From NCBI RefSeq assembly GCF_028401385.1, contig NZ_JAQOMR010000001.1, positions 3,702,501 through 3,766,500 of the forward strand: 64,000 bases of DNA, read 5' to 3'. Source of the DNA: Marinicella algicola (GTDB taxonomy: Bacteria > Pseudomonadota > Gammaproteobacteria > Xanthomonadales > Marinicellaceae). Shown here piece after piece: positions 15,543 through 31,199 of this stretch; position 1 is the first letter of the stretch; each line of letters starts with the position of its first letter. The translations under genes were made by a program, and so were the position numbers. The notes under the pieces were generated by a model that was not told the DNA's origin, did not search any database, and was given only the letters and a program-made list of their open reading frames with translations.

Positions 15543-16305
15543 CCCCGAAAAATGACGATTCTCACGGAGTTTGAGGGAGATCAAAGAACAATGCAGTCTG
15601 GATTACTAATCTGAAAATGCATTCGGGACCTCAATACGGCTTCTGGCCAAGAGGTTCACTGCATCCGGCCCTGCAAGTCGTGTACGGGGTCCCGATTGCG
15701 AAAACCGTTTCCCACCGGAGAGCGCCTCCCAAACGCCAGATATTCCATGGAGAAGGACATGGCCCCCACGGCCGCCCATTCCAATCGTGTACGTAGTACA
15801 ACCGCCACATCCCCTCGACCAACCAGATCATTCGTGACAGCTATCTCTACCTTCATTGGAACGGCATCCTGACCCATGACAGGGCCGAACACGAGATGGC
15901 GACCTTTGCCGATGCCGCGCTGATCGAGCCGAATGAACGCTGGGGCCGTCGCAAGGCGGGCTGATCTCGCCCTTCCTTGCCGATTTTTCAGGTCGATCCG
16001 CATTTTCGAGGCGGCGCTCCCGGCGGGGCGCCGCCTGCATTTTTCAGGGTTGGTATCGCGCACCCGCAACCGGTCCATCACGGACGGTTACCCGCTGATT
16101 TTCAAGCGCGAGATCGATGGCTTCCGGTGTCGGCATGCCCCGCCATTGAAACAGGCTAGGTTTATCCCCAATTTGACTGTAAAAGGGGCCGTAGTGATTT
16201 GAGCGGAAACGGCTTTTCCCCTAAGCTTTGCGCTTGAAAAAGCAGTGATTCGGTGGCGTTTTACGTAACCTGCCGCACCCCTGACAAATTCGGAAAGACC
16301 TGTTG
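15543..16305. other. Region before gyrB without a clear gene; possible broken ORF
   Basis: No intact recognisable gene is seen in this 760-bp stretch. A plus-frame segment ending at TGA 15961-15963 reads NQIIRDSYLYLHWNGILTHD and continues EHEMATFADAALIEPNERWG. It looks protein-like but has an in-frame stop (TAG near 15801) and no recognised family. A 59-codon frame from ATG 15616 lies just before it and an indel could join them. The last 100 bp are AT-richer and must hold the gyrB promoter. Confidence 0.35.
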
Positions 16306-18742
<2,437 letters not shown>

Positions 18743-18834: not shown

Positions 18835-20497
18835 TTAGACTTCCAGCGGCAGATGGCCGACATCACCGCGCTTTGCAGCATCTTCGGCCGCCTCATACCC
18901 TGCATCGGCATAACGGATAATCCCCAGCGACGTATCGTTGGTGAGCGCGTGTTCCAGCCGTTCCGCGCCATCGGCCGTGCCGTCGGCGATGATGGTGACG
19001 CCGGCACTGGTCATGTAACCGGCATAGCCGCCGCCGCCGGAATGGATGACGACCAGATCGGCCATCGAGGCGCACATCGTCATGGCGTTGATCAGCGGCC
19101 AGTCGGCAATCGCGTCCGATCCGTCCTTCATGTTCTCCGTCATGATGTTGGGATGCGCCATGGCTCCGGCATCAAGATGATCGCGGGAAAATGCGACCGG
19201 TCCCTTGAGCTCGCCGTTTTCGACCAGTTCATTGACCGCCACAGCAAGTCTGGTGCGCTCGCCATGACCGAGCCAGGCGATGCGGGCCGGCAGGCCCTCG
19301 AACGGTACGTTTTCGCGCGCCAAACGGATCCAGTTGGTGACGATGAAATTATCCGGAAACATCGCCAGAACCAGATCATCGATGCGGGCGATATCGCTTT
19401 CCTCCCCGACAGCGCCATCCAGCGGAACGGGCCGATCGCTTCGGCAAACAGCGGCCTGAGATAGGCCTCGGTGAAGATCGGAATATCGAAGGCATTGGCA
19501 ACGCCGCCTTCGCGCGCCTGGGTACGAATCAGATTGCCATTGTCAAACACTTCCGCACCGTTTTGCTGGAATGTCAGCATCGCTCGCACATGCTCGGCAA
19601 CCGAGGCACGGCTTGCGGCCATCAGCTGAGCCGGGCCTTCCTCGCGAAGGCGCTTCACCTCCGCAAGGCTCATGCCCTTCGGCACATAGCCATAGACAAG
19701 GTCGTGGGCCGAGGTCTGGTCGGTGACGATATCGGGCGTGATCCCGCGCCGGACAATCTCGGGATAGATATCGGCGGCATTGCCGACAAGCCCGACCGAA
19801 ATCGCCTTTTTGGCGGCAACCGCCTCGTCGATCATCGCAAGTGCTGAATCGAGATCGGGCGCGATCGCGTCGAGAAAGCCGATCTCGTGACGTTTTTGGC
19901 GCGCTCATCATCGATATCGACCACCAGGATGGCGGCACCGGCCATGCGGCCGGCGAGCGGTTGCGCGCCGCCCATGCCGCCGAGTCCTGCAGTCAGGATG
20001 AAGCGGCCGGCCAGCGAACCGTCAAAACGCTTTTCGGCGATCCGCATGAAGATTTCGTAGGTGCCCTGAATGACGCCCTGCGAACCGATATACTGCCAGG
20101 CGCCGGCCGTCAGTCCACCCCAGCAGATCAGGCCCTTGCGTTCCAGCTCGTAGAAGACTTCGGCCTTTGCCCACTGGCCGACGATATTGCAGTTCGCCAT
20201 GATCACCAGCGGGGCTTTTGCATGGGTCTTCAACAGGCCGACCGGCTTGCCGGACTGGATGATCAGCGTCTGGTTCTCGTCCATCTCGAGAAGCGTCTTC
20301 ACGATCATGGCATGTGAGGGCCAGTTGCGCGCGGCCTTGCCAAGGGCGGCATAGACCACGAGGTTGTCCGGGTCTTCGCCAACGGAAAGCACATTTTCCA
20401 TCAGACGCAGCAGAGCTTCCTGCCGCCAGCCTTTGGCGCGGATTTCAGGCCCGCCGGGGATCGGAAAACGCGGGTGGCGCGGATTGTCTTTCGGCAT
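18835..20497 (-). CDS. Urocanase-family enzyme, probable thiourocanate hydratase (two frameshifts)
   Basis: The repaired protein has 554 residues, full length for the urocanase family. The NAD+-binding glycine stretch TAGLGGMGGAQPL is near residue 160. The urocanase signature FQGLPxRICW reads FEGLPARIAW, so the catalytic Cys (Cys410 in Pseudomonas HutU) is Ala at about residue 408. Later VCDGT is replaced by IADGT and the GYSQH stretch by GYMTS. This argues against histidine-derived urocanate as substrate. The frame is repaired by one G at the C4 run 19404-19407 and one A at the T5 run 19893-19897 (both on + strand numbering). AGGAGG precedes ATG 20497. Last gene of the ergothioneine-type operon. 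Inference: hydrates thiourocanate to the thiohydantoin propionate. Confidence 0.75.
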
Positions 20498-20507
20498 GTT
20501 TTCCTCC

Positions 20508-21596
20508 TCAGGCCAGCGCGTAATCGGCAATCGAAATGCCGAGCGCCTTTTCCACCACCGGATAGACCGCCGGGTCCTTCACGCTGGAAGACAGCGGAAT
20601 AACCGTCTTCGGCACATGCAGCACAAAGATCGTCATGCCCTCTTCAAGTTGGCCGACGCTCAAGGGCTCGCCGTCTTCCGAAAGCGTGGTGATCACGTCG
20701 GGAAAGGTTGCAAGCCGCGTCTCGCCCACATCCTCCACGGCCATATATTCGTTCATCACATGCAGCAGCATTGCCTTGTCGCCGGAACCCACCGTCACCG
20801 TGCCGACATCGAAGGCCTCATTGGTGTAGATAACGGCCTTTTTCGTCACCTTGCCCTCGGTCAGGATTGCACCATTGGTGGTTTTGACGATGGCGTCGAT
20901 GACGGCCGAACCGCTCTTTTTCTCCGCCGCGATGATGGCTTCACCGAGTGCGAGCGCCATGGAAATGCCGCCGAGTGCGGCATTGGCTTTCACGTAAGAT
21001 GCGCGCAGCGGATTGCGGCACGACGCGATAAAGCCGCCGGACTGGTCGGCAGCGGTTCGAAGCACCGGCGAGATCTTCGCCGTCGCACCCTTGACCACCA
21101 GTTCGATATAGCGGTTTTCGGCGCGATTGCCGCCAACGGCGGTCTGAATCATCTGCTCCGGCGAACTTGCCATGCCGATTGCGCCCATATCACCGGTCGG
21201 ATGGGCGCGGATATCACCGACGGCATCGACCACCTTGGTACCGAGCACGGCGGATGGCAGCCAGCCGTTGAGCGTCGAGGATTTGCCGTTCTGGCCGACG
21301 ATCAGGCCGGAAAGCCGTTCGCCAAGCGCCTCCTGCAGCAGCTCTGCCGCCTTGATGTAGTCGATGCCCTGCATCTCCCAGGGCGTCGTCGAGGCCGGCG
21401 CGCCGATGGCAGCAGCCGTTGCCACCCAGTCATTGTCGGAAAGCTCTTCCACCGAGACCAGTTCCGGCTTGCCGACATTGACGGCGGCATAGCCCAGCAT
21501 ACGGCCGTGATCGGCCCAACCACCGCCACCGGCGGCATAAACCGAGCCACCCTTGACGGCGGGCTCCACATCTTTGGTCGTCAGGATACGGCCCAT
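20508..21596 (-). CDS. DUF917 protein, probable thiohydantoin desulfurase
   Basis: The 362-residue protein belongs to the DUF917 family (Pfam PF06032, to my knowledge now named S-methyl thiohydantoin desulfurase). The N-terminal domain shows VYAAGGGGWADHGRML near residue 20 and ELSDNDWVATAAAIGAP near 50-65. The C-terminal beta-rich domain ends ALGISIADYALA. The gene lies 1 bp from the carbamoylase gene and 10 bp from the hutU-like gene, so it is tightly in the operon. In ergothioneine breakdown this enzyme replaces the thiohydantoin sulfur with oxygen, giving hydantoin-5-propionate and sulfide. The role here is inferred from family and context. Confidence 0.75.
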   Translation of the reverse strand: MGRILTTKDVEPAVKGGSVYAAGGGGWADHGRMLGYAAVNVGKPELVSVEELSDNDWVATAAAIGAPASTTPWEMQGIDYIKAAELLQEALGERLSGLIVGQNGKSSTLNGWLPSAVLGTKVVDAVGDIRAHPTGDMGAIGMASSPEQMIQTAVGGNRAENRYIELVVKGATAKISPVLRTAADQSGGFIASCRNPLRASYVKANAALGGISMALALGEAIIAAEKKSGSAVIDAIVKTTNGAILTEGKVTKKAVIYTNEAFDVGTVTVGSGDKAMLLHVMNEYMAVEDVGETRLATFPDVITTLSEDGEPLSVGQLEEGMTIFVLHVPKTVIPLSSSVKDPAVYPVVEKALGISIADYALA

Positions 21597-21597
21597 C

Positions 21598-22851
21598 TCA
21601 TTGCTCCATCAGTTGTTTGTCGAGCCGCTTTACCGCCTCGAGCAGGACTTCTGCTGCGAGCGCGATATCGGCGTTTTCCGCGAATTCTTCCGGTGTGTGG
21701 CTGCGCCCGTCACGGCAGGGAATAAACACCATGCCGGCCTTGGCGATCCGGGCCATGAAGGCGGCATCGTGACCTGCGCCAGACGCCATGCGGCGGTGGG
21801 TGGCCCCCGTCGTCTCGCAGGCATCATCGAGCACGTCCATCACCAGCGGATCCATCGGCATGGCAGGATTGTCGGAGACAAGGCGCGGCGCGGCGATGGC
21901 CACACCGTTATCCCCGGCAATGCCTTCAAGGCAGGATTCAAGCGAGGCCAGAAACGCGCCGAGATCGTCGCGGTGCTCCGAGCGGATATCGAGCAGCATG
22001 CGCACTTTCGAGGGCACCACATTGGCGGCGTTCGGCCACATCTCGAATTCGCCGGTCGTTGCGGCAAAATGGCCGGGTGTCGCCGAAAGCTCGCCGGCAA
22101 AGGTTTCAACCGCGAGCACCACATGGGCGCTGGCGGCAAGCGCATCGGCGCGGTGATCCATCGGCGTGGTGCCCGCATGGTCTGCGCGGCCCTCGACAAT
22201 GATTTCCACGCGGGTGATCCCGGCAATGGCGGTGACCACGCCGATATCGCGTTTTTCGCTCTCCAGCACCGGGCCCTGCTCGATGTGGAGTTCGAGAAAG
22301 GCGCGAATATCGTCGCGGGCCTTCTGTTCGGCATCCGGATTGCCACCGACTTGCGTGATGCCATCGGCAAGCGTCATCCCACCTGCCTCCCGGCTCAGCC
22401 ATTCGGCCGGGCGAACACCCGCCATCCCGCGCGAACCAATGCAGGAGACGCCGAAGATCGAGACCTCCTCGGCCAGGAAATCGGCAACCTCCAGATCATG
22501 GTCGAGTTCAACGCCGGCCTCCGTGAGGCCGCGCACCACTTCGAGTGCCACGACCACACCGGCAACCCCGTCGAACCGCCCGCCATCGGGCACCGTGTCG
22601 GAATGCGAGCCGAGCATGATCGTGCCTGAGCCGGGCGTCTTGCCCTTGCGAATGCCGGTCAGATTGCCGGCGGCGTCGATGCGGGTTTCAAGCCCTGCGG
22701 CCCGGAACGCCTTTTCGAGATAGGCACGGCCTTCAAGGAACAGCGGCGAGAAGGCGCGACGGGTCCACGGCCGGTTCTGTTCGGTAATCGCGGCAAGCGC
22801 GTCGATATCGGCTGCAATGCGCGCCGGAGAAACGGTGAGGTTGCGGCTCAT
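21598..22851 (-). CDS. M20 family hydrolase, probable N-carbamoyl-L-glutamate amidohydrolase
   Basis: The 417-residue enzyme is of the allantoate amidohydrolase / N-carbamoyl-L-amino acid hydrolase type. Metal ligands are visible: H83 in GSHSDTVPDGG, D94 in GRFDG, E128-E129 in LAEE, H189 in LHIEQGP and a late His in RSHTPEE. The dimerisation domain lies in the middle (ADHAGTTPMDHR). Its start overlaps the preceding hydantoinase gene by four bases (ATGA), so the pair is translationally coupled. Automatic pipelines would call it hydantoinase/carbamoylase or AllC. With the neighbouring genes the likely substrate is N-carbamoyl-L-glutamate, giving glutamate, CO2 and NH3. Confidence 0.75.
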   Translation of the reverse strand: MSRNLTVSPARIAADIDALAAITEQNRPWTRRAFSPLFLEGRAYLEKAFRAAGLETRIDAAGNLTGIRKGKTPGSGTIMLGSHSDTVPDGGRFDGVAGVVVALEVVRGLTEAGVELDHDLEVADFLAEEVSIFGVSCIGSRGMAGVRPAEWLSREAGGMTLADGITQVGGNPDAEQKARDDIRAFLELHIEQGPVLESEKRDIGVVTAIAGITRVEIIVEGRADHAGTTPMDHRADALAASAHVVLAVETFAGELSATPGHFAATTGEFEMWPNAANVVPSKVRMLLDIRSEHRDDLGAFLASLESCLEGIAGDNGVAIAAPRLVSDNPAMPMDPLVMDVLDDACETTGATHRRMASGAGHDAAFMARIAKAGMVFIPCRDGRSHTPEEFAENADIALAAEVLLEAVKRLDKQLMEQ

Positions 22852-24227
22852 TGTACCGCCTCGCGCAAAGGCAGACTCGCCTCAGGCCGCACGAATGCGC
22901 CGGCGCCGGGGTCGGTCACGCTCTTGCCGTCGAAGACCTGTTTTCCGCGCAGCCATGTCGCCGTCACCTTGTAGGGCAGGCGCATGCCGTTATAGGGCGA
23001 CCAGCCGACGACATTGTTGCCGCTTTCCGCCGCATCATAGACAAAATCGCCCGGCTCGAGAACGGCGATATCGGCATGTTTGCCGATTTCGAGCGCGCCC
23101 TTCACATGATCGAGACGAAAATGCTTCGCGGGGTTTGCCGCCATCAGCCGTGCGGCCCAATGGAGCGGCACGCCATGCTCAAGCGCGCCCTTGATGAAAA
23201 ACGGCATCATCACTTCCAGCCCCGGAACGCCCGAGGCATTGGCCAGCATGTCCGGATTGGTCTTGCGGTCTTCCGACCAGCTCACATGATCGGTGGAGAC
23301 CAGGGTGACATTGCCGCAAGCGACATGACGCCAGAGCTTTTCCACCTCGGCGCGCGGACGCACCGGAGGATTGATCTTGGCCTTGCCGCCAAGCCGCTTG
23401 ACATCGTTTTCCTCGTCCAGCGTCAGGTAATGGATGCAACACTCCACCGTGGCAGTGTGACCCTGGGCACGATAGGCTGCGGCGATCTCGTAGCCGCGAC
23501 CAAGCGAGCAATGCACCACATGGGCGGGACAGCCAGTCGCCGCACCCGTCTCATAGATCTGGTGCATGGCGATGAGTTCCGTCAGCGGCGGGCGCGACAG
23601 GCCGTGGGCGCGGTAATCGGTGAGGCCGGAAGCCTTGACCCTGGCAATTGCCGCATTGACGAATTCATCGTCCTCATTGTGGGCACCGGCAGCAAGGCCG
23701 GTCGGCGCGATTGCGGCAAAGCACTCCTCCAGAAGCGCTGCCGGAATGCGGGGAAAACGGGTCGGGTGTGTGCCGAAGGTGGAGAACTTGAAGGCAGCGA
23801 CCCCGGCTTCCACCTGTTCGGCAATCCGGGCAGCACCTTCAGCCGGATTGACCGTGCCGTAGAGCGCGAAATCAACGCGGGCCTGCGGCGATGCGTGGGC
23901 GATCTTCTTCTTCACGGCTTCGGCCGAATTGACCACATTGCCCTCGTCATAGGGCATGTCGACAATCGTGGTGACACCGCCGGAGGCAGCAGAGCGCGTC
24001 GACCAGATGAAATCCTCCTGGTCCTTCTGGCTGAGCGAATGCACCTGCGCGTCGATGCCTCCCGGCAGGATCAGGGCCGTCCCCAGATCATGACGCTCAC
24101 GGGCGTCAGGCATTGCGCCCTGGCCGACGGCCGCGATCAGCCCGTCGCGGACAGCCACATGGCCGCCCTTCACCACCCGATCGGAAAGCACCAGCGTGCC
24201 TTTCAGAACGAGATCGAAATCCGACAT
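22848..24227 (-). CDS. Dihydroorotase-like cyclic amidohydrolase, probable hydantoin-5-propionate hydrolase
   Basis: The 459-residue protein has the amidohydrolase fold with K147 (AAFKFST) as candidate carbamylated Lys, H183 (AGAHNED), H239 (HVVHCS) and D313 (VSTDHVSW). The first metal motif, normally DxHxH, is GGIDAQVHS, so Gln61 replaces the first His. This is unlike PyrC, AllB and ordinary hydantoinases. It overlaps the carbamoylase by ATGA and lies 10 bp from the permease gene. Inference: opens the hydantoin ring of hydantoin-5-propionate to N-carbamoyl-glutamate. The alternative name 'dihydroorotase' is unlikely because nothing else for pyrimidine synthesis is present. Confidence 0.7.
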   Translation of the reverse strand: MSDFDLVLKGTLVLSDRVVKGGHVAVRDGLIAAVGQGAMPDARERHDLGTALILPGGIDAQVHSLSQKDQEDFIWSTRSAASGGVTTIVDMPYDEGNVVNSAEAVKKKIAHASPQARVDFALYGTVNPAEGAARIAEQVEAGVAAFKFSTFGTHPTRFPRIPAALLEECFAAIAPTGLAAGAHNEDDEFVNAAIARVKASGLTDYRAHGLSRPPLTELIAMHQIYETGAATGCPAHVVHCSLGRGYEIAAAYRAQGHTATVECCIHYLTLDEENDVKRLGGKAKINPPVRPRAEVEKLWRHVACGNVTLVSTDHVSWSEDRKTNPDMLANASGVPGLEVMMPFFIKGALEHGVPLHWAARLMAANPAKHFRLDHVKGALEIGKHADIAVLEPGDFVYDAAESGNNVVGWSPYNGMRLPYKVTATWLRGKQVFDGKSVTDPGAGAFVRPEASLPLREAVQ

Positions 24228-24237
24228 TTGAATACTC

Positions 24238-24978
24238 CTAGTAGCTACGGCCGGTGCGCCGGGCCATGGACCGCTCGAACATCACGAACCCATCGTGAAT
24301 GAGGAGCGCCAGAACGCCGACCACAAGGCCGCCTTGCAGAACGAAAGCGGTGTTGTTCGACAACAGCCCGGCGATGATGACCTCACCAAGCGTCTTGGCC
24401 GCGACAGTCGAGCCGATCGTCGCCGTTGCCAGCGAGATGACCACCGAAAGGCGGATGCCGGCCAGAATGACGGGAAACGCCAGCGGAAACTCGACCTGCG
24501 TCAGCCGCTGGGTGCCGGTCATACCGACCCCGCGCGCGGCCTCGGAGACATTGCCGGGAAGATTGGTCAGACCCGTCAGCGCATTTTCGAAGATCGGCAG
24601 CAACCCGTAGAGGAACAGCGCAATCAGCGTCGGGATCGGTCCGAAACCGAAGATCGGTACGGCCAGCGCCAGCACGGCGACCGGCGGGAAGGTCTGGCCG
24701 ATATTGGCGATCGAGCGCGACAGCGGCAGGAATTCGACACCGAACGGCCTTGTGACGACGATGGCAAGACCGACAGAAAACAGCGTTGCCGCAACGGTTG
24801 CCACGCCGACAATGGCGAGGTGGCTGAGGGTCAGCGACAACAGGCTGGTCTGGGTATAGATCGCAGGGGCGCCGTTTTGTGTGAACGGCCGGAACACCGG
24901 AGCGAAGGCTTGCGGAAAGACGATAAAGGCAATCAGCAGCACCAGAAGGACCAGACGGACAAGAACAGAGGTTTTCAT
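24238..24978 (-). CDS. ABC transporter permease, OpuC/YehW type
   Basis: This 246-residue inner-membrane protein has about six hydrophobic helices and the EAA loop 'EAARGVGMTGTQRLTQVEFP' in the second half (seen in part). It is the smaller of two permeases, like YehW of the E. coli YehZYXW (OsmF) system. Its start overlaps the ATPase stop by four bases (ATGA). With the other permease, the ATPase and the binding protein it forms a quaternary-amine type importer. Its place inside the ergothioneine-type operon makes ergothioneine or a related betaine the likely cargo. Confidence 0.8.
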   Translation of the reverse strand: MKTSVLVRLVLLVLLIAFIVFPQAFAPVFRPFTQNGAPAIYTQTSLLSLTLSHLAIVGVATVAATLFSVGLAIVVTRPFGVEFLPLSRSIANIGQTFPPVAVLALAVPIFGFGPIPTLIALFLYGLLPIFENALTGLTNLPGNVSEAARGVGMTGTQRLTQVEFPLAFPVILAGIRLSVVISLATATIGSTVAAKTLGEVIIAGLLSNNTAFVLQGGLVVGVLALLIHDGFVMFERSMARRTGRSY

Positions 24979-25912
24979 GATGACGGCCCCGCGGCACGAC
25001 GGATCAGCGCGTCCCGGGTGACCCGGCCAACCACCTTGCCGTCACGTTCGACAGGAAGGGCGTCGCGTCCCGACCACAGCGTTGCGGCCAGCGCATCCTT
25101 CAGGCTTGCTGACGCCGGGATCGCTTCGCCGTCAGCCGCCCCGCCCTCGACAAGGTTGTCGCAGGCCTCGAGCGAGAGCATGCGGAAGGCCTTGTCGCCG
25201 GTGCCGAGCAGTTCATTGACGAAATCGCTTGCCGGATCGGCGATGATCTCGGCGGCCGGGGCGTATTGTTCAAGCCTGCCCTCATGCATGACGGCGATCT
25301 TGTGGCCGAGCAGGATGGCCTCGTCCATATCATGGGTGACCAGCACCACTGTGGTCGAAAACCGGCGCTGGATATCAAGCAGGTCCTCCTGCGCCTTGGC
25401 ACGGATGATCGGATCGAGCGCGCCGAAAGGCTCGTCCATCAAAAGCACGGCAGGCTCTGCGGCCAGCGCGCGGGCCACGCCGATGCGCTGCTGCTGGCCG
25501 CCGGAAAGCTCATGCGGCATCCGGTCGCGAAAGGCTGACGGCTCCAGGTGAAAAAGTTCGAGCAATTCATCGACGCGGGCATCGCACCGCTTACGGTCCC
25601 AGCCGAGAAGCTTGGGCACCGTGCCGATATTTTCCGCCACCGAGCGGTGCGGGAACAGTCCGTGGCCCTGGATGGCATAGCCGATACCGCGCCGAAGCTC
25701 GTAGTCAGGCAGTTCGCGGTTGTCGCGCCCGTCAATGCGGATCGTACCGGATGTCGGTTCCACGAGGCGATTGATCATCCGCATCAGCGTGGTCTTGCCG
25801 GAGCCGGAGGTGCCGACAATTGCTGCAAGCTCACCACGCTCGACGGTGAGCGAGACATTATCGACGGCATTAAAGTCGCCATAGACCTTGGTAATTCCTC
25901 GATCTCGATCAT
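24975..25912 (-). CDS. ABC transporter ATP-binding protein, OpuCA/YehX type
   Basis: The ATPase of about 312 residues has Walker A GTSGSGKTT, signature ELSGGQQQR, Walker B VLLMDEPFGALD and switch motif VTHDMDEA. A short CBS-like C-terminus (ALPVERDGKVVGRVTRDAL) follows. In the raw sequence it is fused in frame to the upstream permease. I split them because adding one G at 25897-25898 gives MIEIEGITKVYGDF from ATG 25912, the normal start of such ATPases, and also gives the permease its own stop at 25870. The two genes then overlap by about 43 bp. Confidence 0.75.
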
Positions 25913-27110
25913 GCCCGGCTCCCTTTTTGGCTTTTGTCTGGCTGATTTCAACAAGCGCATCGAGAATAATGGCTGCAGCAAAGGCCATGGCGACGACCGG
26001 CAGCGCGCCCAAAAGCACGAGATCGGTCGCGGTCTGAGCAATGCCCTGAAAAACGAATGTGCCGTATCCACCGCCGCCAATCAGCCCGGCGATCACGGCA
26101 AGGCCGATATTCTGCACCAGCACGATGCGGATTCCGGTGAGGATGACGGGAAAGGCAAGCGGCAGCTCCACCTGGAAAAGCTGCTGACGAACGGTCATGC
26201 CCATGCCACGGGCGGCCTCGCGCGCATCGCGCGGCACACTGTCGAGGCCGGCAACCGTGTTGGAAACAACCGGCAACAGCGAATAGGCAAACAGCGCAAC
26301 AATCGCAGGCGCAAAGCCGATACCGGCAATGCCGAGTTCAGCAGCGCCCGGCACATTACGGCCAACCCACGCCAGCGGCGCGATCAGAAGCCCGAACAGC
26401 GCGATTGACGGGATCGTCTGCAGCACGTTCAGGCTGTTCAGGATCGTGGCCCGCGCCTTCGGCACGCGAAAACACAGGATGCCGATCGGAATGCCGGCGG
26501 CGGCGGCGGCAGCCAGCGAGCCGAAGGCCAGTTCCACATGTGTGCGGCCTTCGCGCCAGAAGGCGTCTGCGCGATTGCTATATTCCTTCAGGATCGAGAG
26601 ATCGTTCCAGGCACCGGACCACAACAGCAGCCCGATCGCAGCGGCGGCGACCACGAGAAAGGCGATGCGCAGCAACGGTGGCAGCGCCTTGCGCACGATT
26701 GCATCGGCCATGGTGATCGAAAACGCGAACAGCATCAGCCAGAAACTCGCGCCGGGCGAGATGCGGGCGTAGGGATTGTCCGGTGGCATCAAATAATAGC
26801 CGGCACGGCCAACCATCAGCGCCAGAACCGCTATGGCGGCGATGGAAACGGCAAGCCGGACATTGACCGGCGTCTTGAACAGAACCACCGCGATGGCGGC
26901 CAGCATGGCAATGATGAGCGCGGCACCCTGCCAGGGCGGCATGGCCGCCCAGACCATCACATTGTCGGCAGAAACGATACGGTTTGCCCGGGAAAGCGCA
27001 AACGGCTGAAGAAACAGCGACAGGATCGCTATCGCCGCGACGATGACGCCGAGCTTGTCGAGCCTGAGCGCGGCGTGGCTTTCCTGTCGGGGGTCGCTGA
27101 TGGCTGACAT
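25870..27110 (-). CDS. ABC transporter permease with long N-terminal membrane region, YehY type
   Basis: About 413 residues starting MSAISDPRQESHAAL. The first 190 residues contain about five extra hydrophobic helices, then a standard permease domain follows with EAARGMGMTVRQQLFQVELP as the EAA loop. This long architecture is that of YehY, the larger permease of E. coli YehZYXW. The raw frame continues into the ATPase, but after the single-base repair at 25897-25898 the protein ends at TAA 25872-25870. Gene order binding protein, large permease, ATPase, small permease equals yehZYXW. Confidence 0.75.
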
Positions 27111-27240
27111 GGCGTGCCCTTCGCTTGGCAACGGTGATCCGTCCCGCTCATGTGGCGGGTGTTCGCAGTAAGTCGGGTAAAGCCCGCTTCGTATCACCCG
27201 CGCCATGCGCGGGCGTTTTGCGTTTGCAGTCCTTTTCCGT

Positions 27241-27265
27241 GGATCCCGGCCTCAAGCCGGGATCC
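27241..27265. repeat. Perfect inverted repeat in the gap after the binding-protein gene
   Basis: GGATCCCGGC and GCCGGGATCC form a perfect 10-bp stem with loop CTCAA, within the 250-bp gap 27111-27362. No gene is seen in the gap. It resembles the palindrome at 18792 in its GGAT..CCGGGAT core. In the operon it could limit read-through so that the binding protein is made in excess over the membrane proteins. Confidence 0.6.
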
Positions 27266-27362
27266 GGAGCCATTTTACGGGCTACTCTATCTGCGTTTTG
27301 CAGCCTTGTGTCTTACCGCCCGCAATGCCAGGCAATCCCGGCATTGCGGAAGGGAAGGCCTG

Positions 27363-28280
27363 TTACTTCACGAACCCGTTTGAGGTCAGGTAGTCCTTGG
27401 CAACCGCATCGGCAGGTTCACCGCCGACCTGGACGCGACCGTTGAGGTCCTGCAGAGTTTCAAGCGTCAGACCCTCGAAGACCGGCTTCAGGATATCTGC
27501 AATCTGCGGATATTCCTCGAGGCTGGCTTCGCGGATGATCGGGGTCGGTAGATAGACCGGCTGCACGCCCTTGTCGTCTTGCATCACCTTCAGGCCCGAA
27601 GGGGCAATGCCGCCGTCGGTACCGTAGACCATGGCAGCGTTGGCGCCGGAGGTCTGCTTGGCAGCCGCCGCAATCGTTGCCGCCGTGTCACCGCCGGAAA
27701 GCTGGATCAACTGACCGGAGGTCAGGGCGAAACCATAGGCTTCCTGAAAGGCCGGCAATGCTGCAGGCGAGGTGACGAATTCGGAAGACGCGGCAAGCTT
27801 CACCTTGCCACCGCCGGCGACATAGGCGCCGAACTCGCTCATATTGGAGAGGTTGTTCGGGTCGGCGACATCCTTGCGCAACGCAATCGCCCAGGTGTTA
27901 TTGGCATCCGCCGGGGTAAGCCAGACGATCTTGTTGGCGTCGTAGTCAAGCTTCTTGGCTTCTTCATAGCCGGCCTCGGGCTTGTTCCAGACCGGCAGAT
28001 CGGTCTTGTTGAAGAAGAAGGCGGCATTGCCGGTATATTCCGGATAGATGTCGATCTGACCTTGCGTGATCGCCTGACGGACGATCGGGGTCCCGCCGAG
28101 CTGTATCTTGTTTTCGGTCGGAATGTCATTGGCCTGAAGAGCCTGAATGATGATGTTGCCGAGCACGCCACCTTCCGTGTCGATCTTGGAGGAAACCACG
28201 ACCGGATCGGCCGAGGCGGTTCCTGCAAAGGAAAACGCGGTGACGGCGAGCGCGCCGGTCAATGTCAAAAGTCGTTTCAT
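27363..28280 (-). CDS. Periplasmic quaternary-amine binding protein (OpuAC/OsmF type)
   Basis: The 305-residue protein has a Sec signal peptide (MKRLLTLTGALAVTAFSFAG, cleavage after ASA near residue 24). The OpuAC domain shows SSKIDTEGGVLGNIIIQAL, GQIDIYPEYTGNAAFF near residue 75-90 and a final PADAVAKDYLTSNGFVK. This fold binds glycine betaine, choline, proline betaine or, in EgtU-type proteins, ergothioneine. It follows the HutH-like gene by 54 bp. The ligand is inferred from the operon, since the ligand-cage residues cannot be assigned by eye. Confidence 0.8.
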   Translation of the reverse strand: MKRLLTLTGALAVTAFSFAGTASADPVVVSSKIDTEGGVLGNIIIQALQANDIPTENKIQLGGTPIVRQAITQGQIDIYPEYTGNAAFFFNKTDLPVWNKPEAGYEEAKKLDYDANKIVWLTPADANNTWAIALRKDVADPNNLSNMSEFGAYVAGGGKVKLAASSEFVTSPAALPAFQEAYGFALTSGQLIQLSGGDTAATIAAAAKQTSGANAAMVYGTDGGIAPSGLKVMQDDKGVQPVYLPTPIIREASLEEYPQIADILKPVFEGLTLETLQDLNGRVQVGGEPADAVAKDYLTSNGFVK

Positions 28281-28334
28281 GATCTGTCCCTCTCTTGCCG
28301 GTCCATCCGGACCTTTAAAGCGTTACCTGCGGCC

Positions 28335-29885
28335 TCAGGCCTTTTCAGGCGGTGCGAGTGCGAAAAAGTCATCGAGCAGGGCAAGTGGTGCCTGTTCGAT
28401 CAGTCTGGTCATCGTCGCGTCCGAGCCGAGTTCCTCTTCGATCTGTTCAACCTCGCTCGAAAGCGGCCTGTCTTTCAGATAGAGCGCGGAGTGCGTTCTG
28501 ACGATAGCATAGACGAGATTTGCTACACCACGCGGCTCATCGCCGGAAATATCCATGGCCTGTGCGGCCAGCAACGCCTCAAGTCCGGCCATGCGTCTCA
28601 GTGCCCGGACCTGGCGCTCGAAACGCTCGACCACCAGCGGCAGAAAGGCGGCCTCGTCCTCGATACCGCCAGCCACCACCAGCGACTGCGCCGAAATCGG
28701 CGCTGACAGTGTCTGGGTCCTGACAAAGAGGTCGCCCGCAAGCTTCAGGATCGGGCCGAAACCGGTTGCCACGGTGCCATGAGGCACCAGATTGACCGGA
28801 AGGCCGCGCCGTCCGCCATTGGTCAGAATGACGCAGCGATTGAAGATGTTGCGGGCCACATGGGCCATCGCGATCTGGGCGGCCTGCACGTAAATGGTGA
28901 CGTCGAGCGGCAGCGAACCACCGGAGGTCAGAACCTCGTTGCCGATCACCACCGGATTGTCGTCGGTGCGACCGGTCGCGGCGAGAATGGTATTGCCGGC
29001 AATCGTCAGACTTTCGATAGCGGTGCCGAACACCTGCGGCATCATGCGGATGCTCAAGGGATCCTGCACATGGCTCGCCGAAATCCAGCCCCAGTCGTCA
29101 TAGGCCCGGCAAAGCCAGGTGCCGATATCCGCATGGGCATGGGTGCCAACCTCAACCACCGAGCGCCAGGGCGCAATTGCCCCGCCCATGGCACCGGCCG
29201 TTGCCAGACCGGTCGCCAGCAGCACGCGCACCGCAAGAGCAGCCTTGTGCAGCGCGGACGCCGCCGAAGCATAGCCGATGGCGTTCAGCGAAAACGAAGC
29301 GAGGGCATCGCGCGGCTCCATCTTGAGCGGCTGAAGCCCGGCCAGCGCAAAAGCTTCGGTCGTCGGCATGCGGCGGCCCTTGTACAGCACATCGCCAGCG
29401 CCGGTGAGCGCCGCCGAAACCTGCCCCATCAAGCCAATATCGGCACAGCCAATCGAGCCGGTGCGGCGCACGACCGGAATCAAATCATGTTCCAACAAGG
29501 CCTGAAAGGCTTCGACCAGCGCCATCGAGCAGCCAACCCGTCCGGTCAGCGCGGTATTGATGCGAATGGCAATCGCATTGCGCACGATCTCGACCGGAAA
29601 GGGATCACCGGTACCGAAATGGTGGGCGCGCACCAGGCCGAGATTGAACTCTTCGAGCGCTTCCAGCGTCCACTCGGTGTCCTTCATCGCGCCGACGCCG
29701 GTATTGGCGCCGTAGATCGAAAGCCCTTCGGCAAGCCGGTCGCGGACCACCTGATGGGCCCGCTCGACCCGTTCGACGCCCGCATAGGTAACCGCGGGAA
29801 GCGCGCAACCGGCGCCGATCCGCGACAGAATGTCGAAGCTCAGCGGCTGGCCTGAAAACATGATGCTTTTGTTCTTCGCGTTCAT
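28335..29885 (-). CDS. MIO-less histidine ammonia-lyase homologue, probable ergothionase
   Basis: The 516-residue protein aligns along its length with HAL/PAL enzymes: YGANTGVG (Y58, like Tyr53 of HAL), QDPLSIRMMPQV (R280) and the C-terminal helical part. However, the site that normally reads GS(V/I)GASGDLAP is GSIGCADIGLMGQ at residues 144-155, so the Ala-Ser-Gly that cyclises to MIO is absent. Ergothionases (ergothioneine trimethyl-lyases) are HAL relatives lacking MIO. ATG 29885 has GGGGA five bases before it. First gene of the leftward operon. Inference: splits ergothioneine into thiourocanate and trimethylamine. Confidence 0.8.
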   Translation of the reverse strand: MNAKNKSIMFSGQPLSFDILSRIGAGCALPAVTYAGVERVERAHQVVRDRLAEGLSIYGANTGVGAMKDTEWTLEALEEFNLGLVRAHHFGTGDPFPVEIVRNAIAIRINTALTGRVGCSMALVEAFQALLEHDLIPVVRRTGSIGCADIGLMGQVSAALTGAGDVLYKGRRMPTTEAFALAGLQPLKMEPRDALASFSLNAIGYASAASALHKAALAVRVLLATGLATAGAMGGAIAPWRSVVEVGTHAHADIGTWLCRAYDDWGWISASHVQDPLSIRMMPQVFGTAIESLTIAGNTILAATGRTDDNPVVIGNEVLTSGGSLPLDVTIYVQAAQIAMAHVARNIFNRCVILTNGGRRGLPVNLVPHGTVATGFGPILKLAGDLFVRTQTLSAPISAQSLVVAGGIEDEAAFLPLVVERFERQVRALRRMAGLEALLAAQAMDISGDEPRGVANLVYAIVRTHSALYLKDRPLSSEVEQIEEELGSDATMTRLIEQAPLALLDDFFALAPPEKA

Positions 29886-30024
29886 TCGGTTCCCCATGCG
29901 TTGACGGCAGAGTATTGGATTATTGTCAAAGACGGGATATCCCATATGTTGAACGGGTGATGCTCTTGATTTATGCAATGTCTCGTTTGCCTAATTTTTA
30001 GGCCGTTCACCGGAGGCGCGATCA

Positions 30025-31199
30025 TTGGATATCCTGACGCTGTGCAGCGTGTATGAAGTGCTGAAATGCGGCGGGCTCAGGCCTGCCGCCCGCGCGCTCA
30101 AACGCCCGCCAGCCAGCATGGCAGCCGCCGTCAACCGGATAGAGAACGAGTTGGCCACACCTCTGGTGCAAAAGCCGGTTCACGGCTGTCGCTGACGCTT
30201 GAGGGCCGGCGGTTGATGCCGGATCTGGCGCTTGCTGCGGGCACCGCCCGCGCGCTCGGCGAGCTTGCGGAGATCGAAGCCGAACGCAGGGCTATGCTAA
30301 ACGTCAGCCTCCTCACGCTTTCGCGCTACTGCCACGTGGCGCGGATGGGCAGCATCCGCCGTGCCGCACGCGAGATCGGCATCGGTCAGCCGCAGCTTTC
30401 CCGGCAGATCTCCGCCTTCGAACATGAGATAAACCGCGCCCTTTTCATCCGCAATTCGGATGGTGTCGACCTGACACCTGCCGGACAGCAAGTGCTGGCG
30501 CTTGCCGAAGTTCTGGAGGAGGTCTGGAAGCGGCTGACCAAGAGTGCAGCCCGTCAGTTTCGCCGCACCGTCTCCACCTGTCATCTCGGCTCTGTGATCC
30601 CGCTCGGCTATGAGAGCAATACGGCGCGTTCGCTCGCCCGCCTTTCGGCGCGCTGGCTGGAACAGCGGCCCGAGGCGCCGCTGTTCATCTCTTCGACCAC
30701 AGCGGACGAACTGATGCGCGGCCTGCAGGGCGGAAGTTATGACGTGGCGCTGCTCGACACTGAGGCGATCCCCGAAAGCTATGAACGCCGGACGATCTCG
30801 CACTCTCGGCTTTCCGTCGTCGGGCCGCGCACGCTGATTGAGAAAAGCGGCGGGGATATTGCCAATCTGGTTCTGACCCGGCCGATCGCGGTGCCGAGCC
30901 TGAAAAGCGGGCTTCGCCAGAAGGCCGATGCGCTGTTCGCCGAAAAGCTGGGCGAGCCCGAACGGGCCGCCATGCGCCTTGTCGAGGTCGATTCCCTGCC
31001 GATCATCGTCAATCTCGTCATCGAACAGGGTTTTGTTGCGGTCCTGCCCGAGGCGGCCTTCCTGACCATGGCGGCCCCGATCGGCAGCATTCCGCTCGAG
31101 GCGCGTTTCAGCCTCACCCTTTCCCTCGTCTGGCCGCCGACGGCCGCCGCCAGCCGTCACGCCGGGCGTATCCTCGAGCTTCTACCTTCGGCCGAGTGA
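30025..31199 (+). CDS. LysR-family regulator with two tandem N-terminal winged helices (frameshifted)
   Basis: The repaired protein has 391 residues. Residues 1-65 form a divergent LysR winged helix (LTLCSVYEVLKCGGLRPAAR then LTLEGRRLMPDL). Residues 96-160 form a second, canonical one (LLTLSRYCHVARMGSIRRAA, GQPQLSRQISAFE, LTPAGQQVLALA), and the LysR substrate domain follows. The frame breaks at the A4 run 30170-30173; one more A gives LVQKAGSRLSLTLEG. The TTG start at 30025 is supported by GGAGG eight bases before. If translation began instead at MLNVSLLTL (residue 91) it would be an ordinary LysR. It is divergent from the ergothioneine-type operon and probably controls it. Confidence 0.75.

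Follow-up and report, generated by a model that had tools for sequence, protein, structure and literature searches.

The 64,000-nucleotide stretch analysed here (contig NZ_JAQOMR010000001.1, positions 3,702,501 to 3,766,500; the window) carries nine leftward genes and a divergent gene for a LysR-type regulator that most probably serve the uptake and degradation of ergothioneine. Judged from its sequence, a single leftward operon under a LysR protein with two helix-turn-helix (HTH) domains would import ergothioneine through an ATP-binding cassette (ABC) transporter of the OsmF/YehZYXW type and degrade it by the known five-step route. An earlier note, made from the letters alone, had proposed these nine gene products and the divergent LysR, and their coordinates, order and strands were all borne out by open reading frames (ORFs) and profile matches (Table 1). 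In the proposed scheme, ergothioneine brought in by the transporter would lose trimethylamine to give thiourocanate (ErtA), and thiourocanate would be hydrated to thiohydantoin propionate (ErtB). Sulfide would then be removed from thiohydantoin propionate (ErtC), hydantoin-5-propionate opened to N-carbamoyl-glutamate (ErtD) and the latter converted to glutamate, ammonia and CO2 (ErtE). This is reportedly the order of steps in ergothioneine catabolism, and the enzymes of the route are said to be an ergothionase, a thiourocanate hydratase, a thiohydantoin desulfurase, a hydantoinase and a carbamoylglutamase. All five enzyme types are present in the operon, which differs from the known route in that an OsmF-type importer and a double-HTH LysR are joined to them in one nine-gene unit.

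ErtB to ErtE are members of their families by curated NCBIfam cut-offs. In the window, ErtC, ErtD and ErtE each passed the cut-off of the pathway-specific equivalog model (Table 1), ErtE also passing that of the Zn-dependent hydrolase model NF009531 (660 bits; cut-off, 486). For the pieces of ErtB in the window the first match was NF058530, each piece being too short for the cut-off; the intact copy of Martelella lutilitoris (locus L009, genome G356) passed the equivalog cut-off with 1030.9 bits against 930. The L009 hydratase also passed the general HutU model (689 bits; cut-off, 375), and that model alone would therefore mislead. The nearest structure to the hydratase was 7ned (807 bits, the next structure reaching 630), which is listed in the structure database as a urocanate hydratase and which we take to be the Paenibacillus thiourocanate hydratase. 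The stretch SGGGGYAGYMTSAG is common to the hydratase and 7ned and is not found in the two urocanases compared, and the Cys of the RICW motif of 7jfz is Ala in this hydratase and Gly in 7ned. The earlier statement that the hydratase lacks the catalytic residues of a real HutU was too strong: the HutU fold and general motifs are present, and the protein differs in specific stretches that it has in common with 7ned.

A close chemical relative of ergothioneine is improbable as the substrate of the operon, whether ergothioneine sulfonate, S-methyl-ergothioneine, thiohistidine or another. NCBIfam does hold models for S-methyl versions of ErtB and ErtC, and the ergothioneine sulfonate pathway of Agrobacterium radiobacter (Yan 2022) is cited as known in PMC13405746. 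However, the S-methyl models were missed by ErtC (289 bits; cut-off, 450) and by the L009 ErtB (747 bits; cut-off, 880), both of which passed the plain models, and on these scores of the hydratase and the desulfurase an S-methyl-ergothioneine pathway was rejected. A sulfonate substrate, for its part, would presumably not need a thiohydantoin-type desulfurase.

The lyase was placed by structure and motifs. Its best match in the PDB was the Treponema denticola ergothionase 6s7j (183 bits; best HutH structure, 133), and against the HutH models it reached only 210-215 bits, the cut-offs being 524 and 539. The HutH motif GSVGASGD is replaced in the lyase by GSIGCA-DI, with no Ala-Ser-Gly (ASG) triad for the 4-methylideneimidazole-5-one (MIO) group, and QDPY is replaced by QDPL, with Leu for Tyr as in 6s7j. 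When the lyases were aligned with the genome's own HutH, the MIO triad was absent from 16 of 17 lyase rows, the exception being the lyase of locus L148. For the comparison of columns, the L148 row was counted with the MIO lyases rather than with ErtA once its motif had been seen; Leu stands at the HutH Tyr position in all 16 ErtA rows and in 6s7j, and nine columns are invariant in these rows and 6s7j and absent from the three MIO lyases. Ergothionase is stated in an excerpt of PMC13405746 to lack MIO. In this organism the lyase would act on ergothioneine.

These results agree with the earlier description of the lyase as lacking the catalytic residues of a real HutH, namely the ASG triad and the Tyr of QDPY. 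The note had also named, as findings against ergothioneine, a lyase acting on histidine with a formed MIO and closest characterised homologues that are all histidine or hydantoin enzymes; an MIO triad is missing here, and the closest structure to the lyase is an ergothionase, not HutH. With four enzymes placed by NCBIfam cut-offs (ErtC, ErtD and ErtE in the window, ErtB in L009) and the lyase by 6s7j and its motifs, the five fit the five-step route, and the proposal of ergothioneine rather than histidine catabolism held up. In genome G452, a lyase with the MIO triad (GSVGASGD) lies beside ErtC and ErtB (L148, 7814-12606), possibly for unmethylated thiohistidine.

The folds of the HutH and HutU families are common to the operon and to histidine utilisation (hut) systems and, with those of the hydantoinase and carbamoylase families, are what one would also expect of a second operon for histidine, or of one for hydantoins in general. 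Such an operon is nevertheless scarcely credible here, given the missing MIO triad, HutH scores far under the cut-offs, ErtC, ErtD and ErtE scores above pathway-specific ones and a hut locus elsewhere in the genome. HutF, HutI, HutH, HutG and HutU lie together in one stretch (L152) of the same contig, ~0.47 Mb from the operon, which is therefore not the histidine pathway of this genome. A hut system has an MIO lyase and HutI, HutF and HutG, whereas this operon has neither; the absence of HutI, HutF and HutG that the earlier note reported is thus correct for the operon and incorrect for the genome. Histidine utilisation was rejected on the lyase motif, the missed HutH cut-offs and the separate hut locus. 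An ORF resembling class D beta-lactamases adjoins the hut genes (L152, 11710-12465; 254.5 bits; cut-off, 280).

The substrate-binding protein (SBP) of the importer passed the OsmF model NF049931 (Table 1). Its best structures were the OsmF-type entries 5teu, 5uve, 4nd9 and 4wep (445 bits), with EgtUC chains at 84-91 bits. Two permeases and an ATPase are encoded after the SBP, which fits an OsmF/YehZYXW importer, and the order SBP, large permease, ATPase, small permease is presumably that of yehZYXW. The known OsmF/YehZYXW system is standalone in most rhizobia checked, whereas here it is embedded in a catabolic operon. With EgtU, as described in an excerpt of PMC9732360 (Zhang 2022), the importer has in common the ABC type, an OpuAC-type binding domain and an aromatic quaternary-amine cage; EgtU, however, fuses permease and binding domain, and this operon encodes a separate SBP and two permeases.

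Pocket residues named in the same excerpt were compared by eye with the SBP by way of the EgtUC sequence. The OsmF pocket has Lys, Asp, Tyr, Asn and Asn at EgtU K242, G244, F293, T296 and N339, and Trp, Glu, Ser, Tyr and Tyr at Y341, E375, R379, Y419 and Y443. The excerpt gives the Phe of the cage (a Tyr-to-Phe switch) and G244 as the determinants of ergothioneine specificity in EgtU (PMC9732360); the SBP has Tyr for the Phe and Asp for G244. At the positions that contact the carboxylate in EgtU (K242, T296 and R379), the Lys is kept and the other two are Asn and Ser. The alignment thus indicates that the quaternary-amine cage is kept, that the specificity residues of EgtU are not and that the importer is not EgtU, membership of which was rejected on the pocket residues, the separation of SBP and permeases and the low EgtUC scores.

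The distribution of the operon was examined in the stretches fetched around the best 80 of 370 ErtC loci. An OsmF SBP lay within the stretch at 4 of the 80 loci, which are of rhizobial type: L009, L010 (M. radicis), L014 (Martelella) and L086 (Devosia soli). ErtD and ErtE had no match in the fetched stretches of L014 and L086, and ErtA had none at 12 of the 80 loci, one of which (L030) is cut by a contig end. When the genomes of 26 of these best 80 loci were searched, OsmF was found over its cut-off in 22 and inside the operon in 4; in the window's own genome and those of M. lutilitoris, M. alba and Devosia, no match other than the operon copy exceeded that cut-off. The ErtC cut-off was passed by 1 of 33 genomes in the family group of the window's genome and by 1 of 348 in its order group. 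For wider draws the groups of G356 (M. lutilitoris) were therefore used instead. The family group of G413 consisted of one genome. A class-level draw of 337 genomes gave five over the ErtC cut-off, three of them (G356, G413 and G600) with the importer inside the operon; G394 has ErtA, ErtC and ErtB, and G452 has ErtC and ErtB with the ASG-bearing lyase. At phylum level 8 of 397 genomes passed the ErtC cut-off, and no SBP was found near ErtC in the seven other than G356.

The nine-gene order is conserved. G413 and G600 carry the nine genes in identical order, again beside a divergent LysR, with lyase identities of 47 and 36% and SBP identities of 71 and 61%, respectively. Chance insertion does not account for three lineages in which the importer lies at this one site, between ErtA and ErtD, and an identical order at such lyase identities argues for ergothioneine as the cargo. 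A tree of ErtC plus ErtB from 23 loci, whose reading depends on the choice of the long L148 branch as root, places G413 and G600 below the rhizobia with support of 0.73 to 0.99. This fits an old nine-gene unit from which the importer would later have been lost; transfer of the whole operon may instead have taken place. An SBP tree was built with 12 standalone OsmF loci and five of seven outgroup loci, L106-L108 and L116 being replaced by the longer L154-L157 of the same genomes, and in it the 12 standalone rhizobial copies split from the embedded and outgroup copies at 0.983. Standalone copies are 66-73% similar to the Martelella SBP, as near as that of G413 (71%), and the sequence alone therefore gives no sign of specialisation.

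Several observations weigh against ergothioneine as the object of the whole unit. No ergothionase model in NCBIfam matched the lyase, and seven columns are common to the ErtA rows and the MIO lyases and not found in 6s7j. In the pocket, 5 of the 10 EgtU positions compared differ in the SBP, and the embedded copies form no single supported clade in the SBP tree. A second Opu-type SBP in the window's own genome (L192, 2250-3368) scored 130 bits to EgtUC, above the operon SBP. No OsmF was found in 4 of the 26 genomes searched (G360, G361, G362 and G375). The ert loci of the first three have no ErtA match either, but G375 (Mycoplana) has ErtA, and OsmF is therefore not required. In 18 of the 22 OsmF-bearing genomes OsmF lies away from ErtC: 12 have it on another contig, and 6 have it on the ErtC contig at approximate distances of 10 kb (G370), 52 kb (G377), 125-127 kb (G363, G365 and G366) and 1.5 Mb (G376). 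The SBP family, finally, is named for glycine betaine, and embedded and standalone copies are identical at the pocket positions compared.

The last three of these points, together with the OsmF cut-off passed by the SBP and ert operons without an importer being the rule, also favor a different arrangement, in which the enzymes degrade ergothioneine and the OsmF importer carries other or several betaines (glycine betaine, proline betaine, hercynine), being merely co-opted or co-regulated. We consider this possible but rather unlikely, since in Martelella and two distant genomes the importer is found at one and the same site, flanked by ErtA and ErtD, while M. alba and Devosia have it between ErtA and ErtC. 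From its position in the operon, the cargo would be ergothioneine. That the importer is "dedicated", as the earlier note put it, is an interpretation; OsmF is kept elsewhere in most rhizobia checked. The second Opu-type SBP (L192) is another candidate binder of betaine or ergothioneine.

A more doubtful extension is that OsmF/YehZYXW might constitute a second, EgtU-independent class of bacterial ergothioneine importers. The nine-gene operon would then be an old alphaproteobacterial unit whose importer was later lost or moved in rhizobia, and ergothioneine or a related histidine betaine would be a natural substrate of the family at large, perhaps also of E. coli YehZ. E. coli YehZ has poor affinity for glycine betaine.

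The regulator was anticipated to contain a double HTH, and the intact L009 LysR does have two HTH_1 stretches, as do those of L014, L011 and L150. In the window, the longest LysR ORF retains one, and at L149 the listed LysR ORF has one, with a first HTH-like stretch in an upstream frame. The halves of the L009 LysR align at a score of 54, compared with a maximum of 41 in 200 shuffles. The divergent LysR probably regulates the operon.

In the literature searched, which covered part of the field's journals, we found no link between OsmF and ergothioneine, no ergothioneine use in rhizobia and no coupling of an OsmF importer and a double-HTH LysR to the pathway. The enzymes and the pathway are known, and what appears to be new is this coupling; because the pathway is already curated in NCBIfam, the earlier description of the system as little described applies to the importer and regulator and not to the enzymes or route. 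A gut bacterial pathway, according to an excerpt of PMC12771579 (Feng 2024), also degrades ergothioneine and does so by reductive C-S cleavage with a xanthine oxidase homologue, an enzyme that is no part of this operon. EgtD was not found in the window's own genome, a weak result because the control matched in only one of 14 genomes, and there under the cut-off. The conserved operon offers a direct candidate for ergothioneine uptake before degradation in Gram-negative soil bacteria and, with a single purified binding protein, would allow the cargo of the OsmF/YehZ family to be tested. Degradation of ergothioneine by bacteria of soil and roots could restrict the amount that reaches plants and, via food, people.

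Adjacent genes of the operon overlap by 4 bases or are separated by 10 bases or less, apart from the lyase-SBP (54 bp) and SBP-large permease (~250 bp) intervals, and these short gaps and overlaps suggest a single transcription unit. The hairpins in the SBP-permease gap could set the ratio of SBP to permease expression or be a repeat element. A promoter scan gave 1 site (2.7 in shuffles) and a terminator scan 13 (10.7 in shuffles), neither of which is informative.

Table 1. Features of the ert operon and its regulator in the window
Feature	Position	Strand	Basis
LysR-type regulator, divergent, two HTH domains	30025..31199	+	frame break near 30174; L009 LysR matches in two frames
ErtA, ergothionase-type trimethylamine lyase (putative), histidine ammonia-lyase (HAL) fold without MIO	28335..29978	-	PF00221 274 bits; 6s7j; motifs
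OsmF-type SBP	27363..28280	-	NF049931 496.6 bits, cut-off 400
SBP-permease gap, strong hairpins	27111..27362	-	266 nt spanning the gap fold at z = -6.1
Large permease, YehY-like	25914..27110	-	BPD_transp_1; L009 tblastn 27125-25917; 3' boundary approximate (single-base gaps at ATPase junction)
ABC ATPase, YehX-like	24975..25915	-	ABC_tran; L009 ATPase tblastn 25898-24978, 95% identity
Small permease, YehW-like	24238..24978	-	BPD_transp_1 65 bits
ErtD, hydantoin-5-propionate amidohydrolase	22848..24227	-	NF058538 773.8 bits, cut-off 600
ErtE, N-carbamoyl-L-glutamate amidohydrolase, M20	21598..22851	-	NF058540 596.2 bits, cut-off 520
ErtC, thiohydantoin desulfurase, DUF917 / S-Me-THD fold	20508..21596	-	NF058529 600.8 bits, cut-off 440
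ErtB, thiourocanate hydratase, HutU-like	18835..20497	-	three frames in assembly; pieces match NF058530

The order gyrB, operon, LysR is also kept in M. lutilitoris (L009) and M. radicis (L010). The gyrB protein is 96% identical to that of M. lutilitoris over residues 20-812, and the source is therefore a Martelella-like alphaproteobacterium. The family and order groups assigned to the window's genome are nearly devoid of ErtC. With gyrB and the operon plainly resembling those of Martelella, this grouping looks odd. A 16S search of this genome, which is listed as complete, gave no match; the control was positive in 9 of 14.

The frame breaks in the window are most likely sequencing or assembly errors. 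Besides the hydratase, the large permease and ATPase are affected, being fused in one open frame (24975-27206), as is the LysR gene, where the L009 LysR (391 amino acids) matches by tblastn at 30025-30174 and 30171-31196. Ten genes (operon, LysR and gyrB, with permease/ATPase counted as one) were aligned with M. lutilitoris and M. radicis and contained seven indels, six of them single-base (LysR, one; permease/ATPase, two; hydratase, two; gyrB, one). The gyrB frame changes at 16303-16383, where a single base is inserted in comparison with two Martelella loci. LysR, permease, ATPase, hydratase and gyrB are each one open frame in L009, where permease and ATPase are separate genes with a 4-base overlap, and those of the broken genes compared in L010 are likewise open. 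The five single-base indels across operon genes and LysR could instead mean a decaying operon, with hydratase, permease/ATPase and regulator as pseudogenes. This is very improbable, because the essential gyrB next to it is broken too and the M. lutilitoris copies are intact; the genome's true HutU, outside the operon, is also split, and the remaining operon genes are open and 88-95% identical to L009 where compared. Pseudogene decay was rejected as the principal explanation on the gyrB indel and the open M. lutilitoris frames. Other genes in the window may carry errors of the gyrB kind as well.

Two variants of the gene set were seen among the ErtC loci. The rhizobial loci L011, L012 and L013 have ErtD-E-C-B and a divergent LysR, with no ErtA match in the stretch and no OsmF in their genomes, and may enter the route from another substrate. 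L057 (3245-12940) has ErtE-C-B, with no ErtA or ErtD match, beside an amino-acid-type ABC importer with a family-3 SBP, a GntR regulator and a luciferase-like monooxygenase.

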